From contig NZ_CP032097.1 of assembly GCF_003544915.1 (NCBI RefSeq), positions 1,240,001-1,304,000 on the forward strand: a stretch of 64,000 bases of DNA, in the 5' to 3' direction. A program made the translations under genes and the position numbers. The DNA is from Arcobacter ellisii. Lineage in GTDB: Bacteria; Campylobacterota; Campylobacteria; Campylobacterales; Arcobacteraceae. Below the pieces are notes generated by a model, which searched no databases, was not told where the DNA came from, and saw only the letters and a program-made list of their open reading frames with translations. Below are positions 1-4,964 of this stretch, piece by piece; position 1 is the stretch's first letter, and each line of letters begins with the position of its first letter.

Positions 1-321
1 ATAATTTTGCCTAAAATTGAAGAAAATCAAGAGTATAAAGATTTTTTACTTTTATTAGAATTATTACAAAACTATAAAATAAAACCACTTTTTATTATGC
101 AAGACTTAAATCCTTATATTTTTGCTAAAAATAGGGAAGAGATGAATATTTTGGTCTCTTTAATAAAATCAAAAGTTGAAGAAAAAGGTTTTGAATATTT
201 TGATATGTGGTCTTATAAAAAAGAGGATTATGAGTTTGGAGTTCTAACAGATTCAGTTCATCTTGGAGAATTAGGTTGGGTAAAAGTTAACCAAAAAATA
301 ATTGAACATTTTATGCAATAA
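1..321 (+). CDS. dltD: DltD C-terminal part (cut by window start)
   Basis: The reading frame is open from the first base, so only the last 106 residues are present. The end contains T-D-S-V-H-L-G, matching the Asp-x-x-His of the catalytic triad of DltD, the SGNH-type hydrolase that moves D-alanine onto envelope polymers. The gene is followed by a dltX-like microprotein, dltB and dltA, which supports the call strongly. The part carrying the catalytic serine is outside the window. An inner-membrane-anchored, extracytoplasmic enzyme is expected from the family. Confidence 0.85.
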   Translation: MILPKIEENQEYKDFLLLLELLQNYKIKPLFIMQDLNPYIFAKNREEMNILVSLIKSKVEEKGFEYFDMWSYKKEDYEFGVLTDSVHLGELGWVKVNQKIIEHFMQ

Positions 322-331
322 GGGAATTTAA

Positions 332-472
332 TTGGGATATTTCTTCAAAAATTTTGTAATCTATTTTTTATTGATAATAGGAATACTTTTTATATCAATA
401 GATAAAAATATTAGTGATTTAAACGGAAAAGATACAGATTCAGAAGTAGAATTTGTATATGAGGAATTTTAA
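332..472 (+). CDS. dltX: DltX-like single-pass membrane microprotein
   Basis: A 46-residue protein starting at TTG 332, with the ribosome binding site AAGGGA at 320-325. It begins with M-G-Y-F-F-K, has one hydrophobic segment (about residues 8-23) and a short polar linker, and ends exactly in F-V-Y-E-E-F. In Gram-positive dlt operons DltX is a protein of this size and layout whose C-terminal FxYxxF motif is conserved, and whose tyrosine is thought to carry D-alanine between DltB and DltD. The stop overlaps the dltB start (TAATG, 470-474), so the two are translationally coupled. The usual Gram-positive place for dltX is upstream of dltA; here it lies between dltD and dltB. The identification rests on size, topology, motif and context, not on a search. 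Confidence 0.8.
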   Translation: MGYFFKNFVIYFLLIIGILFISIDKNISDLNGKDTDSEVEFVYEEF

Positions 473-1608
473 TGGAGAGTTTTTTACCTTTCTCTGGAAT
501 AGGTTTTTTTATAATAAGTTTCATTTTTGTTATATTTTTACATCTATTTAAAAATATTTTAAATAAATTTGTTTCATATAAAATAGTTATGTTTTTAGCT
601 GTTGTTATTTATATATATTTTTGTGTTCCTGAATCTTATGAACTTTTTATATTACTTTTGTATGTTTATATAATTTATACAATTTTTGTATCAAACAATT
701 ATCAAGAAACGATTTTTCCTATGATTGTAATTGCATTTCCTATGATTTTACATAAATTGGAAATAGACCCAATTTTTAAGATTATAGGAATTTCATATAT
801 AACTTTTAGAACTATACAAGCAATTGTTGATAGTCATAACTATGGAAAACTCTCTTTTATGGAGTTTACATCTTTTTTACTTTTTCCAACAACACTTCTT
901 GCAGGACCAATTGATAGGTCATATAGATTTCAAGAAGATTTAAAAAAAGGGTATGAAAATTTAACCTTATCAAATATTGGTAAAGGTTGGGATATTTTAG
1001 TTATTGGTGTTTTATTTAAGTTTGTAATTGCTGAATTAGTAGCTATGTTTTGGTTATCAAAAATAGATGAAAATAGTACAAACTTAATTGATATGATAAA
1101 TAGTGCATATTCATATACAACATATCTATTTTTTGATTTTGCTGGATACAGTGCGATGGCAGTAGGTTTGAGTTATATGATTGGAATTTTTACACCAATG
1201 AATTTTAATCATCCATATTTAGCACCAAATCCACAAGATTTTTGGAGAAGATTTCATATTACTTTAGGAACTTGGTTAACAGATTATTTCTTTAAACCTT
1301 TATATAAATATTTACATAAATTTAAGTATTTAAAAAATAGAAAATTACTTATTCAAAATATCGCAATTATTTGCACTTTTTTACTTATGGGAATGTGGAA
1401 TGGTTTAACTTGGTATTTTATATTTAGTGGATTTTTATTTGGAATTTATTCAAGTATTCATAATGCTTATGTTTTATATGTAAAAAAGGGTGGATATGAT
1501 TATTTTACATTTTTTCCTGAAATAATTAGTATTAATTTAAAAAGATTTTTGATGATAAATGCTGCTGTTTTTGCTTTATATTTTTTTAGTGGAAGGGTTC
1601 CTTTATGA
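472..1608 (+). CDS. dltB: DltB, membrane-bound O-acyltransferase for D-alanine export
   Basis: A 378-residue polytopic membrane protein of the MBOAT family. DltB takes D-alanine from the DltC carrier and passes it across the inner membrane. The family block around F-W-R-R-F-H-I-T-L-G is present, with the first conserved histidine at residue 262. The second block reads M-G-M-W-N-G-L-T-W-Y, so Asn310 stands where the invariant histidine of the W-H-G motif is expected. The start overlaps the dltX-like stop and the end overlaps dltA by ATGA (1605-1608). DltB proteins are usually about 380-410 residues, so this one is full length. No dltC is seen downstream of dltA; it may lie upstream of the window. 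Confidence 0.9.
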   Translation: MESFLPFSGIGFFIISFIFVIFLHLFKNILNKFVSYKIVMFLAVVIYIYFCVPESYELFILLLYVYIIYTIFVSNNYQETIFPMIVIAFPMILHKLEIDPIFKIIGISYITFRTIQAIVDSHNYGKLSFMEFTSFLLFPTTLLAGPIDRSYRFQEDLKKGYENLTLSNIGKGWDILVIGVLFKFVIAELVAMFWLSKIDENSTNLIDMINSAYSYTTYLFFDFAGYSAMAVGLSYMIGIFTPMNFNHPYLAPNPQDFWRRFHITLGTWLTDYFFKPLYKYLHKFKYLKNRKLLIQNIAIICTFLLMGMWNGLTWYFIFSGFLFGIYSSIHNAYVLYVKKGGYDYFTFFPEIISINLKRFLMINAAVFALYFFSGRVPL

Positions 1609-3041
1609 GATTTGATTTAGAGATTTTAGATTTTCTTGAGTGTGATAAAGATATTCAAAAGTTAGCTGTTTGTGGGAGTAATAAAGATTTAACTTGGATT
1701 GAATTTAAAAAAGAGGTTGAACTTTTAAAAAATGAACTTTTAAAATATAATCTTCCTAAAGGTCATCCTATAATTATTTATGGACATAAAGAAGTTGAAT
1801 TTATTGTAAGTATGGTTGCTTGTATGAGTTTAGGTTATCCATACATTCCAATTGATACAATTTATCCAAAACAAAGAGTTGAAAAAATAAAAAATATAGT
1901 TAACTCTTCAATTGTAATTGATACAACAATAAATGAAATAGAGTTTAATAAAGAAAATATAAATACAAACTATTTTTTAGATGATCAAATCATTTATATT
2001 ATTTTTACTTCTGGAAGTACAGGAGAACCTAAGGGAGTTCAAATAACAAAAAGTGCTTTAAATAATTTTGATAAATGGTTAAAGGCTGATTTTGGTCTTC
2101 AATCTGATTCAGTTTTTATGAATCAAGCTCCTTTTAGTTTTGATTTATCAGTTTATGAATTGGTTGGTTTTTTAAGTTTTGGTGGAACAATAGTTTTAAA
2201 TAGTAGAGAAACAATTGAAAACCATATTGATTATATGGAGAGATTAAAAAAATATGCTTGTAGTGTTTGGGTTTCAACGCCTTCATTTATTAGTAAACTT
2301 TTACTTTCAAGCGAATTTACAACTAATAATTTAAAAAATTTAGAAACTTTTATTTTTTGTGGAGAAGTTTTACCAGCAACAACTGTAAAAAGAATAAAAA
2401 ATAGTTTTTCTAATTCAAAAGTTTTAAATACGTATGGTCCAACAGAAGCTACTGTTGCTACAACAATAGTAGAAATTACTTCTGAAATTTTAGAAAAATA
2501 CCCTAAAAGTTTACCTGTTGGATATGTAAAAAAAGGAACAACTATAAATTTATTGGATATTGACCAAGAAAATATTGGAGAGATGGAAATCGTTGGAGAT
2601 AATGTATCTATTGGATATTTTAAAAATGAAGAGTTAAATAAACAAAAATTTGAAAAAAAATATGAAAAAAGAAGTTTTAGAACGGGAGATTTTGGATATT
2701 TTGAAGATAATTTGTTGTTTTTTGCAAATAGAAAAGATGAGCTAATAAAACTTCATGGATTTAGAATAGAATTAGGTGAAATTGATAAAGAGTTTACAAA
2801 TAATGAGTTTATAAATGAAGCTATAACTATTCCTTTAAAAAGAGGAAACGAAGTTGTAAAATTAATTACATTTATTATTTGTAAAACAGATATTAATACA
2901 GAGATTTTAAAAACAGAAGTTTCAAAAACTCTTCCTTATTATATGGTTCCTTCTGATATTATAAAAATTGATAAATTCCCATATAACGCAAATCACAAAA
3001 TTGATAAAAATGAATTAATAACTATTTATAGAAACTTATAA
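1605..3041 (+). CDS. dltA: DltA, D-alanine--carrier protein ligase
   Basis: A 478-residue adenylate-forming enzyme that activates D-alanine with ATP and loads it on the DltC phosphopantetheine carrier in the cytoplasm. The core motifs are visible in order: F-T-S-G-S-T-G-E-P-K-G (A3), Y-G-P-T-E-A (A5), R-T-G-D (A7), H-G-F-R-I-E-L-G-E-I (A8) and N-A-N-H-K-I-D-K (A10 lysine). The protein is close to the usual length of about 500. Its start overlaps the dltB stop, so it is the last gene of the dltD-dltX-dltB-dltA block. An amino acid adenylation domain of another pathway is unlikely in this context. Confidence 0.9.
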   Translation: MRFDLEILDFLECDKDIQKLAVCGSNKDLTWIEFKKEVELLKNELLKYNLPKGHPIIIYGHKEVEFIVSMVACMSLGYPYIPIDTIYPKQRVEKIKNIVNSSIVIDTTINEIEFNKENINTNYFLDDQIIYIIFTSGSTGEPKGVQITKSALNNFDKWLKADFGLQSDSVFMNQAPFSFDLSVYELVGFLSFGGTIVLNSRETIENHIDYMERLKKYACSVWVSTPSFISKLLLSSEFTTNNLKNLETFIFCGEVLPATTVKRIKNSFSNSKVLNTYGPTEATVATTIVEITSEILEKYPKSLPVGYVKKGTTINLLDIDQENIGEMEIVGDNVSIGYFKNEELNKQKFEKKYEKRSFRTGDFGYFEDNLLFFANRKDELIKLHGFRIELGEIDKEFTNNEFINEAITIPLKRGNEVVKLITFIICKTDINTEILKTEVSKTLPYYMVPSDIIKIDKFPYNANHKIDKNELITIYRNL

Positions 3042-3105: not shown

Positions 3106-3168
3106 TTGAAAATAGTATTTTTAAAAATTATTATTTGGAATGACCCCAAAAATATAGACATAAAATAA
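3106..3168 (+). pseudogene. Short 5' gene stub interrupted by the IS3 element
   Basis: A TTG start at 3106 with GGAG at 3094-3097 begins M-K-I-V-F-L-K-I-I-I, which looks like the start of a membrane or exported protein. After ten residues the frame enters the insertion sequence at 3136 and soon stops. Removing the element with one copy of the TATT repeat does not put this stub in frame with the kinase remnant on the other side (it meets a TAG within five codons). The stub is therefore either a different gene, or the DNA between was lost. Confidence 0.35.
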
Positions 3169-3225
3169 TTCAGTTAATTAATATAACAATTTAGAGAAAA
3201 TTGTAAATAATTGAAGGAATTAAAA

Positions 3226-3510
3226 ATGGGAAGAAGAGAATATAGTGAAGAGTTTAGAAGGGATGCTGTAAAACAAGTTGTTGAGAATGGATATGGGATT
3301 GTTGAAACAGCTGAGAGATTAGGTGTACATCATGATTCTTTGAGAAATTGGATAAGAAAGTACCAATCACCTGAAGCAGAAGTAGAAACAAAAAAGTTTC
3401 AAGATACACAAGCTGAAATAAAAAGATTACAAAAAGAGCTAAAAAGAGTTACAGAAGAACGAGATATATTAAAAAAGGCCGCAGCGTACTTTGCAAGCAA
3501 CCCAAATTAA
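3226..3510 (+). CDS. IS3-family transposase OrfA
   Basis: A 94-residue DNA-binding protein of the element. The start ATG 3226 follows GAAGGA at 3212-3217. Residues about 4-45 form a helix-turn-helix of the transposase_8 type (S-E-E-F-R-R-D-A-V ... N-W-I-R-K-Y), followed by a leucine-zipper-like helix (residues about 60-85, I-K-R-L-Q-K-E-L-K-R-V). Near its end the heptamer A-AAA-AAG (3471-3477) lets some ribosomes shift to the orfB frame and make OrfAB, the active transposase of this family. Confidence 0.93.
   Translation: MGRREYSEEFRRDAVKQVVENGYGIVETAERLGVHHDSLRNWIRKYQSPEAEVETKKFQDTQAEIKRLQKELKRVTEERDILKKAAAYFASNPN
3471..3477 (+). other. Programmed -1 frameshift heptamer
   Basis: The run A AAA AAG is in phase with orfA codons (AAA 3472-3474, AAG 3475-3477). 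A -1 slip here continues without a stop through G-R-S-V-L-C-K-Q-P-K-L-K-Y-A-F-I-K into the orfB frame. This is the usual arrangement in IS3-family elements. No downstream stimulatory structure was worked out. Confidence 0.8.
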
Positions 3511-3527
3511 AGTACGCATTTATTAAA

Positions 3528-4394
3528 GTGCATGAAATACAGTACACAATAAGAAGAATGTGTACTGTGTTAAAAGTTCATCCAAGTGGGTATTATAAAT
3601 GGTTAAAACAACCTATTTCAAATCTTGAAAAAGAGAATCAAGAACTTCTTATTGAAATAAAAAAAGCATATAAAGAATCAAATGGAATTTATGGTTATAG
3701 AAATATTCATAAGGATTTGAAAGCTTCAAATATTCATGTAAATAAAAAAAGAGTTGCAAGATTAATGAAAGAAGCAAAACTTTGTGGAATAGGAAATTAT
3801 AAAAGAAGACCTAAGTATAAAGCAGGTTCAATTCATAAAGCTCATCCAAATCATTTAAAACAATGTTTTATATCACAAACTCCAAATGAATCATGGGTAA
3901 GTGATATAACTTATATAAGAACTCATGAAGGATGGATATATCTTGCAATTATCTTAGATTTATTTTCAAGGAAAATTATAGGATGGGCAACAAGTCATAG
4001 AATTACAACAGATTTAATAATTCAAGCATTAAAAAATACTAAATATAGAATTCCAAAAGATGGAGTAATTTTACATTCAGATCAAGGGAGTCAATATAGC
4101 TCATATGAATATAAAACTTTTTTAAAACATCATAACATCACACCAAGTATGAGTAGAAGAGGAAATTGTTATGATAATGCAGTTGCAGAAAGTTTTTTTA
4201 AAACATTAAAAAAAGAGTTAGTAAGAAAAACCATTTTTAGAACAAGAGAAGAAGCAAGAGATAAAATATTTGAATATATTGAGATGTTTTATAATTCAAA
4301 AAGAAGACATAGTTATTTAGGTTTTATAAGTCCAAATGAATTTGAGAAAAGGTACAATGAAAATGTTACTCAACCTGAGGTGTTAACTGATTAA
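3528..4394 (+). CDS. IS3-family transposase OrfB (DDE integrase domain)
   Basis: A 288-residue frame from GTG 3528, more likely made as the second half of OrfAB by frameshifting at 3471-3477, because the frame is open upstream of the GTG and reads K-Y-A-F-I-K, the usual OrfB start in this group. An HTH_21-type segment is followed by an rve integrase core. The acidic triad is visible in W-V-S-D-I-T-Y (first D), H-S-D-Q-G-S-Q-Y (second D) and N-A-V-A-E-S-F-F-K-T-L-K (E). The frame is intact, so the element is probably still active. Confidence 0.93.
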   Translation: MHEIQYTIRRMCTVLKVHPSGYYKWLKQPISNLEKENQELLIEIKKAYKESNGIYGYRNIHKDLKASNIHVNKKRVARLMKEAKLCGIGNYKRRPKYKAGSIHKAHPNHLKQCFISQTPNESWVSDITYIRTHEGWIYLAIILDLFSRKIIGWATSHRITTDLIIQALKNTKYRIPKDGVILHSDQGSQYSSYEYKTFLKHHNITPSMSRRGNCYDNAVAESFFKTLKKELVRKTIFRTREEARDKIFEYIEMFYNSKRRHSYLGFISPNEFEKRYNENVTQPEVLTD

Positions 4395-4424
4395 AAAAGT
4401 GTCTACTACTTCGGGGTCATTCCA

Positions 4425-4964
4425 TATTTATCAAATACAATAGATAATTTTAGGGATTTTATAAAAGAGGATAAATCATATAAAGAGATAAGTATAAAAG
4501 AGATTTTAGAAAATACATTAAATCTTACACATGCATCTTTACATAATAATTTTATAAAATTGGTTTTAGATATTGAAGCAGATTTAAAAATATATGGAAA
4601 TAAAAATGAATTAACAGAAGCCTTTTTAAATATTATTTCAAATAGTAAAGATGTTTTAAAAGATAAAAATGAAGAGGATAGATTAATTTTTATAAAAACA
4701 AAAAAACTTGATAAAAATAGATTGGTAATAAGTTTTTTAGATAGTGGTGGTGGAATTGATGAATCAATTATTTCAAAAGTTTTAGAGCCATATTTTACAA
4801 CAAAACATAAATCTCAAGGAACAGGACTTGGTCTTACAATTGTTGATAAAATTGTAAGAGAAAGACATAAAGGTATAATTGAAATTTATAATGAAGCTTT
4901 TACTTATAATCAAAAACAATATATAGGAGCATGTTTCTCTATTATTTTTGATGATAAATTTTAA
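4425..4964 (+). pseudogene. 3' remnant of a sensor histidine kinase
   Basis: The frame is open from the right edge of the insertion sequence and encodes the end of a kinase: L-S-N-T-I-D-N-F-R-D-F just after the lost H-box region, an N-box (N-I-I-S-N-S-K-D), D-S-G-G-G-I-D and G-T-G-L-G-L-T-I. The sensor and phospho-accepting histidine are missing, and no start with a good ribosome site remains (a TTG at 4560 is the first candidate). The matching 5' part is not on the other side of the element, so the gene lost more than a simple insertion would explain. It converges on cobA with a 4-base overlap. Confidence 0.8.

Follow-up and report, generated by a model that had tools for sequence, protein, structure and literature searches.

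The dltD–dltB gap and its small frame

The dlt operon at the start of the window, by which we mean the whole stretch of 64,000 nucleotides analysed here, raises the question of whether the small frame located between dltD and dltB encodes a genuine microprotein and, if so, whether it might relay acyl groups in a Gram-negative envelope in the way described for DltX. An earlier note on this DNA had pointed to a 46-residue frame with a TTG start, one membrane helix, an end in FVYEEF and a TAATG coupling to dltB, and all of these features were confirmed in the sequence: the translated frame ends in FVYEEF, and its stop codon and the dltB start overlap as TAATG. The predicted product, hereafter X, contains a single hydrophobic segment (residues 9-23, with a mean Kyte-Doolittle value of 3.05), with a net charge of +1 over residues 1-7 and of -6 over residues 24-46. 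Judged from hydropathy and charge under the positive-inside rule, X would be a single-helix N-in/C-out protein with a periplasmic C-terminus.

The genome containing the window (2.8 Mb, single contig) encodes dltC, dltD, X, dltB and dltA together as a complete operon C-D-X-B-A (Table 1). The dltC gene upstream encodes 75 aa with a DSMGTV carrier motif. The whole dltD gene matches PF04914 with 174.8 bits and keeps the GSSE and D..H motifs, while the DltD fragment in the window falls below the NCBIfam equivalog cut-off. The catalytic residues are also kept in the related loci L027 and L029, where the DltD Ser (in a GASE motif in L027), the D..H motif and the DltC carrier Ser are all present. As a side observation, an IS3-like insertion with two transposase frames lies directly after dltA, at 3136-4424, with inverted ends read by eye as TGGAATGACCCC/GGGGTCATTCCA; in a histidine-kinase piece beyond it (4560-4964), the ATPase domain alone was recognised.

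Table 1. Coordinates of the dlt genes, the microprotein X and the residues discussed in the text (window positions).
Feature	Position	Strand	Basis
dltD 3' part, SGNH-type transferase	1..321	+	PF04914 E 1e-23 on the fragment; gene start at contig position 1239203
X, 46-aa DltX-like acyl-shuttle microprotein (predicted)	332..472	+	TTG start, 46-codon frame
Single transmembrane helix of X, about residues 9-23	356..400	+	hydropathy
C-terminal shuttle motif of X, F41-V-Y43-E-E-F46	452..469	+	Tyr43 codon 458-460; invariance and dN/dS
dltB variant (MBOAT), 378 aa	472..1608	+	PF03062 E 1.4e-13; TIGR04091 235.7 bits, below cut-off 375
His262 of DltB (StDltB His289), kept	1255..1257	+	alignment
Asn310 of DltB, replacing the 'invariant' MBOAT His (StDltB His336)	1399..1401	+	alignment
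Ser319 of DltB, replacing the StDltB active-site Tyr345	1426..1428	+	alignment
dltA, adenylation enzyme	1605..3041	+	TIGR01734 415.8 bits, below cut-off 559.85; PDB 3fcc/3dhv E 2.8e-91
Tyr184 of DltA, replacing Met of the D-Ala methyl pocket	2154..2156	+	alignment; pocket per PMC8972799
Cys252 of DltA, D-Ala-selecting (B. cereus Cys268), kept	2358..2360	+	alignment

Conservation of X in the genus

A profile search for X across 31 genomes of the genus surveyed (Aliarcobacter/Arcobacter) recovered the frame in 19, all of which also carry dltD and dltB, and dltB directly follows X in every one of them. The dltD gene was found in 20 of the 31 genomes, the extra one being a short fragment in a genome that is 76% complete (G1120); at the level of the family, DltD is present in 19 of 104 genomes, every one within this single genus. 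A start codon at the equivalent site, giving 46 aa, is present in 19/19 genomes (TTG in 10, ATG in 9), and in some of them the open frame extends further upstream. The overlap between the X stop and the dltB start is kept in 18 of the 19 (TAATG 14, TGATG 3, TAGTG 1), with TAA-ATG in the remaining one, and the gene order dltC-dltD-X-dltB-dltA was found in all 12 operons that could be fully read. Moreover, F41, Y43 and F46 are invariant in all 19 genus members, and the residue preceding Phe41 is Thr instead of Glu in L109.

The selective constraint on X is uneven along the protein. Among the 18 loci analysed (17 distinct sequences; L109, missed by the search pattern, was left out), dN/dS was 0.223 for the whole of X, 0.355 for residues 2-6, 0.181 for the transmembrane segment, 0.446 for the linker and 0.045 for the tail (residues 39-46), the most constrained segment. 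The earlier note had proposed looking for the frame before dltB in other Arcobacter genomes and asking whether FxYxxF is kept while the linker varies; the frame is there and intact in the 19 genomes, and the contrast between tail and linker is as had been anticipated.

These data also bear on the simplest alternative, that the gap between dltD and dltB merely happens to hold an open frame by chance. In this AT-rich window, 2 of 1021 stop-to-stop frames of at least 25 aa end in F.Y..F, with 0.43 expected from composition, so the tail motif by itself was rejected as proof, and it is conservation that decides in favour of X being real. The frame and its motif are kept in 19/19 operons with mostly synonymous substitutions, which rules out a chance ORF and leaves this explanation with next to no probability. 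The description of X as a microprotein resembling DltX that keeps the FxYxxF tail and is encoded in a Campylobacterota dlt operon was borne out; the operon is complete, and the gene is both conserved and linked to dltB.

Relationship of X to DltX

X very likely works like DltX, that is, as a protein of the acyl-shuttle type, as its sequence and setting suggest. Like the DltX of Gram-positive dltXABCD operons (PF12459), it combines an N-terminal helix, a linker and an FxYxxF acyl-Tyr tail within a dlt operon, while it differs in that the linker of the Aliarcobacter X is about nine residues longer, in that its gene lies directly before dltB, whereas S. aureus dltX lies before dltA, and in that its partner DltB has Asn in place of His. 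The acyl-shuttle motif is said to have been defined by Schultz et al. 2023. For the Gram-positive relay, it has been described that DltB takes D-Ala from DltC and loads it onto the Tyr in the hexapeptide of DltX, from which it passes to DltD (PMC12148441).

Formally, X falls outside PF12459. The Pfam DltX model gave no match to the X of the window at E up to 1, nor to five further X proteins of the lineage (L027, L032, L033, L038 and L040) at E up to 10, while the controls, three of three Gram-positive and two of two Verrucomicrobial, matched, although the Verrucomicrobial L060 did not reach the gathering score. NCBIfam likewise gave no match to X, and the known DltX controls were equally unmatched there; a PDB search with the X profile returned chance-level matches alone (E 4.4 and worse). 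A direct hhalign comparison of the X profile with Gram-positive and Verrucomicrobial DltX, however, gave a probability of 60.8 and a score of 23.0 (E 8.2e-5 for one comparison), with an alignment that spans helix and tail. Shuffling all columns lowered the score to at most 16.8 (25 shuffles), and shuffling the tail columns only lowered it to at most 15.7 (25 shuffles); in contrast, the score was retained after shuffling of the helix alone (mean 20.8, up to 26.9) or of the linker alone (mean 21.5, up to 25.3), so that, beyond hydrophobic composition, the tail is the sole specific signal shared by X and DltX. The same FxYxxF end with its Tyr was also found in the X of a plasmid and of two MAG contigs (L027, L038 and L040).

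X thus shows that family models can miss such microproteins. To that extent the small gene was easily missed, as the earlier note put it; its 40-aa cousin on enterobacterial plasmids, by contrast, lies between dltD and the MBOAT gene and has been given an annotation, that of a hypothetical protein. With X, the split form of the Dlt relay, in which a microprotein bears the shuttle motif, is extended to Campylobacterota.

DltB without the MBOAT histidine

The partner of X is more unusual than X itself. The model of DltB (pLDDT 88.3) has PDB entries 8jem and 6bug as its best Foldseek matches (TM 0.81), which supports an MBOAT/DltB fold, and the protein ends in FSGRVPL, without an F.Y..F tail of its own. 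In papers on this family, the catalytic pair of MBOATs is described as an invariant helix His and a partner on the re-entrant loop, which may be Asn, Asp or His (PMC12979248), the helix His is called invariant or required (PMC12148441, PMC11035591, PMC12979248), and it is reported to be required in both DltB and PatA (PMC12148441). The window DltB lacks the invariant helix His and has a loop catalytic residue in the form of His262. Compared with StDltB (PDB 6bug, 8jem), with which it shares the fold and the loop His at an identity of 27%, it carries Asn310 and Ser319 in place of His336 and Tyr345.

At the helix His position, 12 of 53 aligned MBOATs have Asn and 41 have His. Ser occupies the Tyr345 position in exactly the 12 Asn rows, while the remaining rows have Tyr (36) or Trp (5), and the loop His262 is kept in 12/12 Asn rows. 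These rows comprise nine from Aliarcobacter, two MAG contigs (Sulfurovum and Flavobacteriales) and one plasmid gene, and are therefore not independent of one another, nine of the 12 coming from Aliarcobacter. Asn310 was found in 19/19 genus members carrying X as well as in L027, L038 and L040, and its codon is AAT in 12/12 operons. Among 25 further MBOATs (24 loci on viral contigs and a PatA-like gene), 24 were readable and all 24 have His, so that His is present in all 65 other readable MBOATs (41 + 24). Two rows had been dropped before the alignment, L028 because its proteins are identical to those of L027 and L077 because no DltB frame was found; L030, L041 and L067 were dropped before the tree, and when conserved columns were compared these three and also L070 were left out.

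In the tree, which was built with the Asn column included, the Asn-type (WNG) DltBs form one clade with a support of 100/99, and a single His-to-Asn change would thus explain all carriers. The plasmid row is long-branched, which makes its exact position in the tree unsure, and the MAG contigs are short (5.2 kb with 32% GC, and 3.8 kb with 62% GC), so that a binning error could lie behind their placement in Sulfurovum and Flavobacteriales. A compensating new His was sought among the 19 lineage-specific positions, and none was found; two of these positions hold a new Tyr (Tyr278 and Tyr370). The opposite change was seen in the DltB of a Bacillota MAG (L072, 3443-4816), in which the helix His is kept and the loop His is replaced by Phe.

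The Asn variant of DltB found no mention among the matches listed in the open-licence literature on the catalytic histidine of DltB and MBOATs. The novelty of this locus is in the His-less DltB lineage rather than in the Gram-negative relay itself, and a stable His-less DltB beside a strongly constrained tail represents a natural test of the role of the MBOAT histidine.

Proposed relay and alternative explanations

The most likely course appears to be the usual Dlt route with a modified DltB. DltC would be loaded by DltA with an amino acid, probably D-alanine; DltB would transfer this amino acid across the inner membrane onto Tyr43 within the periplasmic FVYEEF of X; and X would deliver it to the DltD serine, from which DltD would esterify a putative envelope acceptor. 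Within DltB, His262 may take over as the catalytic base, the dyad being turned to a loop His and a helix Asn; it is the pairing of these two residues that suggests this role. We judge it likely that X serves as the shuttle component of a full Dlt-type apparatus in a Gram-negative cell. The sequences show the operon, the conservation of X and its tail, a single helix with a C-out charge pattern, the kept catalytic motifs of DltC, DltD and DltA, and the DltB fold; the acyl transfers themselves, the amino acid and the acceptor are what we infer. A wider reading, which we put forward tentatively as nearly but not quite as plausible as its opposite, is that of an active His-less MBOAT lineage, which, with a turned dyad, a lost Tyr and a changed adenylation pocket, may have re-specialised in Gram-negative aminoacylation with a split microprotein and spread to distant bacteria and plasmids.

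It might instead be argued that the DltB of this operon is a pseudoenzyme acting as a scaffold or channel, with X being charged otherwise (for example, by a PatA-like MBOAT) or the system decaying. Such an explanation would build on the three papers cited above in which the missing His is called invariant or required, and on the presence of a second MBOAT with His in the genome; however, that PatA-like MBOAT already has its own tail, Asn is fixed in all 19 genus members, and purifying selection is evident across the operon (dN/dS 0.178 for dltB, 0.097 for dltC, 0.218 for dltA and 0.314 for dltD, beside 0.223 for X). In addition, DltBs of the Asn lineage were found beyond the genus, in two MAG contigs and in plasmids, a spread hardly expected of a dead enzyme, and we regard a pseudoenzyme as quite improbable. 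A different alternative accepts the machine as proposed and changes its cargo, which would then be another amino acid, such as glycine, with aminoacylation rather than D-alanylation as the outcome. The D-Ala methyl pocket of DltA has been described (PMC8972799), and its Met is replaced by Tyr in the DltA of Aliarcobacter and of the Sulfurovum MAG, and by Ile in that of the Klebsiella plasmid, where the selecting Cys is also replaced by Ile; both the Met-to-Tyr change and the Cys loss in the plasmid cousin make another amino acid possible. Moreover, glycine modification of LPS via DltA-like machinery has been reported in V. cholerae (PMC3783018). Against this, the closest solved relatives of the window DltA are the D-Ala enzymes 3fcc and 3dhv. 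In addition, at 6 of the 8 pocket positions, which we take to be those of the PheA code, the residues match those of S. aureus and most Verrucomicrobial DltA, the selecting Cys included. The cargo is thus probably D-Ala, a view suggested by the kept selecting Cys, and another amino acid appears rather unlikely, though worth serious consideration.

As for the acceptor, a teichoic-like polymer was considered and rejected, since the teichoic-acid polymerase family PF04464 has no match in the genome of the window and occurs in 4 of 31 genomes of the genus, two with dlt and two without. The putative acceptor would belong to an envelope with an outer membrane, in a bacterium whose genome encodes no recognised polymerase for teichoic acid.

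Comparison with known Gram-negative systems

The earlier note had, by implication, treated a relay of this type in a Gram-negative envelope as new, which did not hold: for PatA of C. jejuni, where motif and MBOAT form one fused protein, an acyl-Tyr relay has been shown (PMC12148441), and dlt genes have been reported in Dickeya, Pectobacterium and Photorhabdus (PMC3544676). In peptidoglycan O-acetylation by PatA/PatB, as in the relay proposed for X, the acyl group travels on the Tyr of a hexapeptide at the C-terminus and is delivered to an SGNH enzyme (PMC12148441); the differences are that the PatA motif is fused to the MBOAT, that the donor is acetyl-CoA and that the His is present. The one other MBOAT in the genome of the window is PatA-like, with a fused FLYFNF tail and the His, and both forms of the relay thus coexist in one genome. 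The claim that the same relay chemistry is used stands for the tail and fails for the catalytic centre of DltB; given Asn310 and Ser319, it would be premature to take the first transfer step as identical. On the whole, the earlier interpretation is partly supported, being right in outline and less new than claimed.

The Dickeya dlt system, compared here by its published description, resembles the present one in being a Gram-negative dlt system. Mutation of dltB in D. dadantii is reported to lower survival of polymyxin, with the substrate described as not known there (PMC3544676), LPS has been suggested in connection with the dlt genes of Dickeya and Pectobacterium with reference to Pandin et al. 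2016 (PMC5541007), and DltB of D. solani has been found necessary for virulence on bittersweet (PMC10931765). Among the matches listed in the open-licence literature, there was no mention of dlt in Arcobacter, and nothing was found there for DltX together with Verrucomicrobia or for 'dltDXBAC'. Operons of the form dltDXBAC, with dltX, are reportedly named in the abstract of Pandin et al. 2016.

Distribution of related loci

A scan of genome contigs with the DltB alignment yielded 49 loci, which together with four loci from plasmid records make up the 53 compared here, and 44 of these contain a short hydrophobic frame that ends in the tail motif under a relaxed definition. The nine loci without such a frame are a bacteriocin-associated dltB (L030), three fused-tail MBOATs (L074-L076) and five short or cut contigs (L034, L041, L058, L065 and L067). 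DltX-like frames are present in Verrucomicrobiota, Chloroflexota, the Flavobacteriales and Sulfurovum MAG contigs and enterobacterial plasmids. At E 0.001, PF04914 matched 2 of 240 genomes of Verrucomicrobiota, 4 of 395 of Bacteroidota and 5 of 78 of the Sulfurovum-MAG genus, and full-length matches in these surveys came only from the index genomes; dlt-type systems are thus rare in the genomes sampled from these groups. Weak DltD matches elsewhere in the phylum (L013 and L014) were discarded as dlt operons, since they adjoin fused-tail MBOATs.

Several arrangements outside the genus were also observed. A plasmid of Klebsiella electrica (NZ_CP041250.1) carries dltD-X-B-A-C flanked by insertion sequences (L027, 3481-7533), and the same operon, with the same protein accessions and likewise between insertion sequences, is found on an Enterobacter cloacae plasmid typed as conjugative (NZ_CP071862.1; L028, 2481-6533). 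A conjugative-typed plasmid of Klebsiella pneumoniae (NZ_CP063883.1; L149, 867-2125) holds the same X together with a dltD of different accession and a dltB that is truncated where the record starts. By analogy with Dickeya, the plasmid operon may affect cationic-peptide tolerance. A megablast search of E. coli genomes for this operon gave no match. In the Sulfurovum MAG (L038, 255-2875), two tandem dltD genes precede X and dltB, an arrangement that might mean a single shuttle shared between two transferases or acceptors; that genome also has a third DltD-like piece. In several Clostridia-like contigs (L042, L044, L046, L049, L050 and L056), the DltX frame lies downstream of dltB and not before dltA, and some of the tails in these contigs read Y-x-Y-x-x-F.
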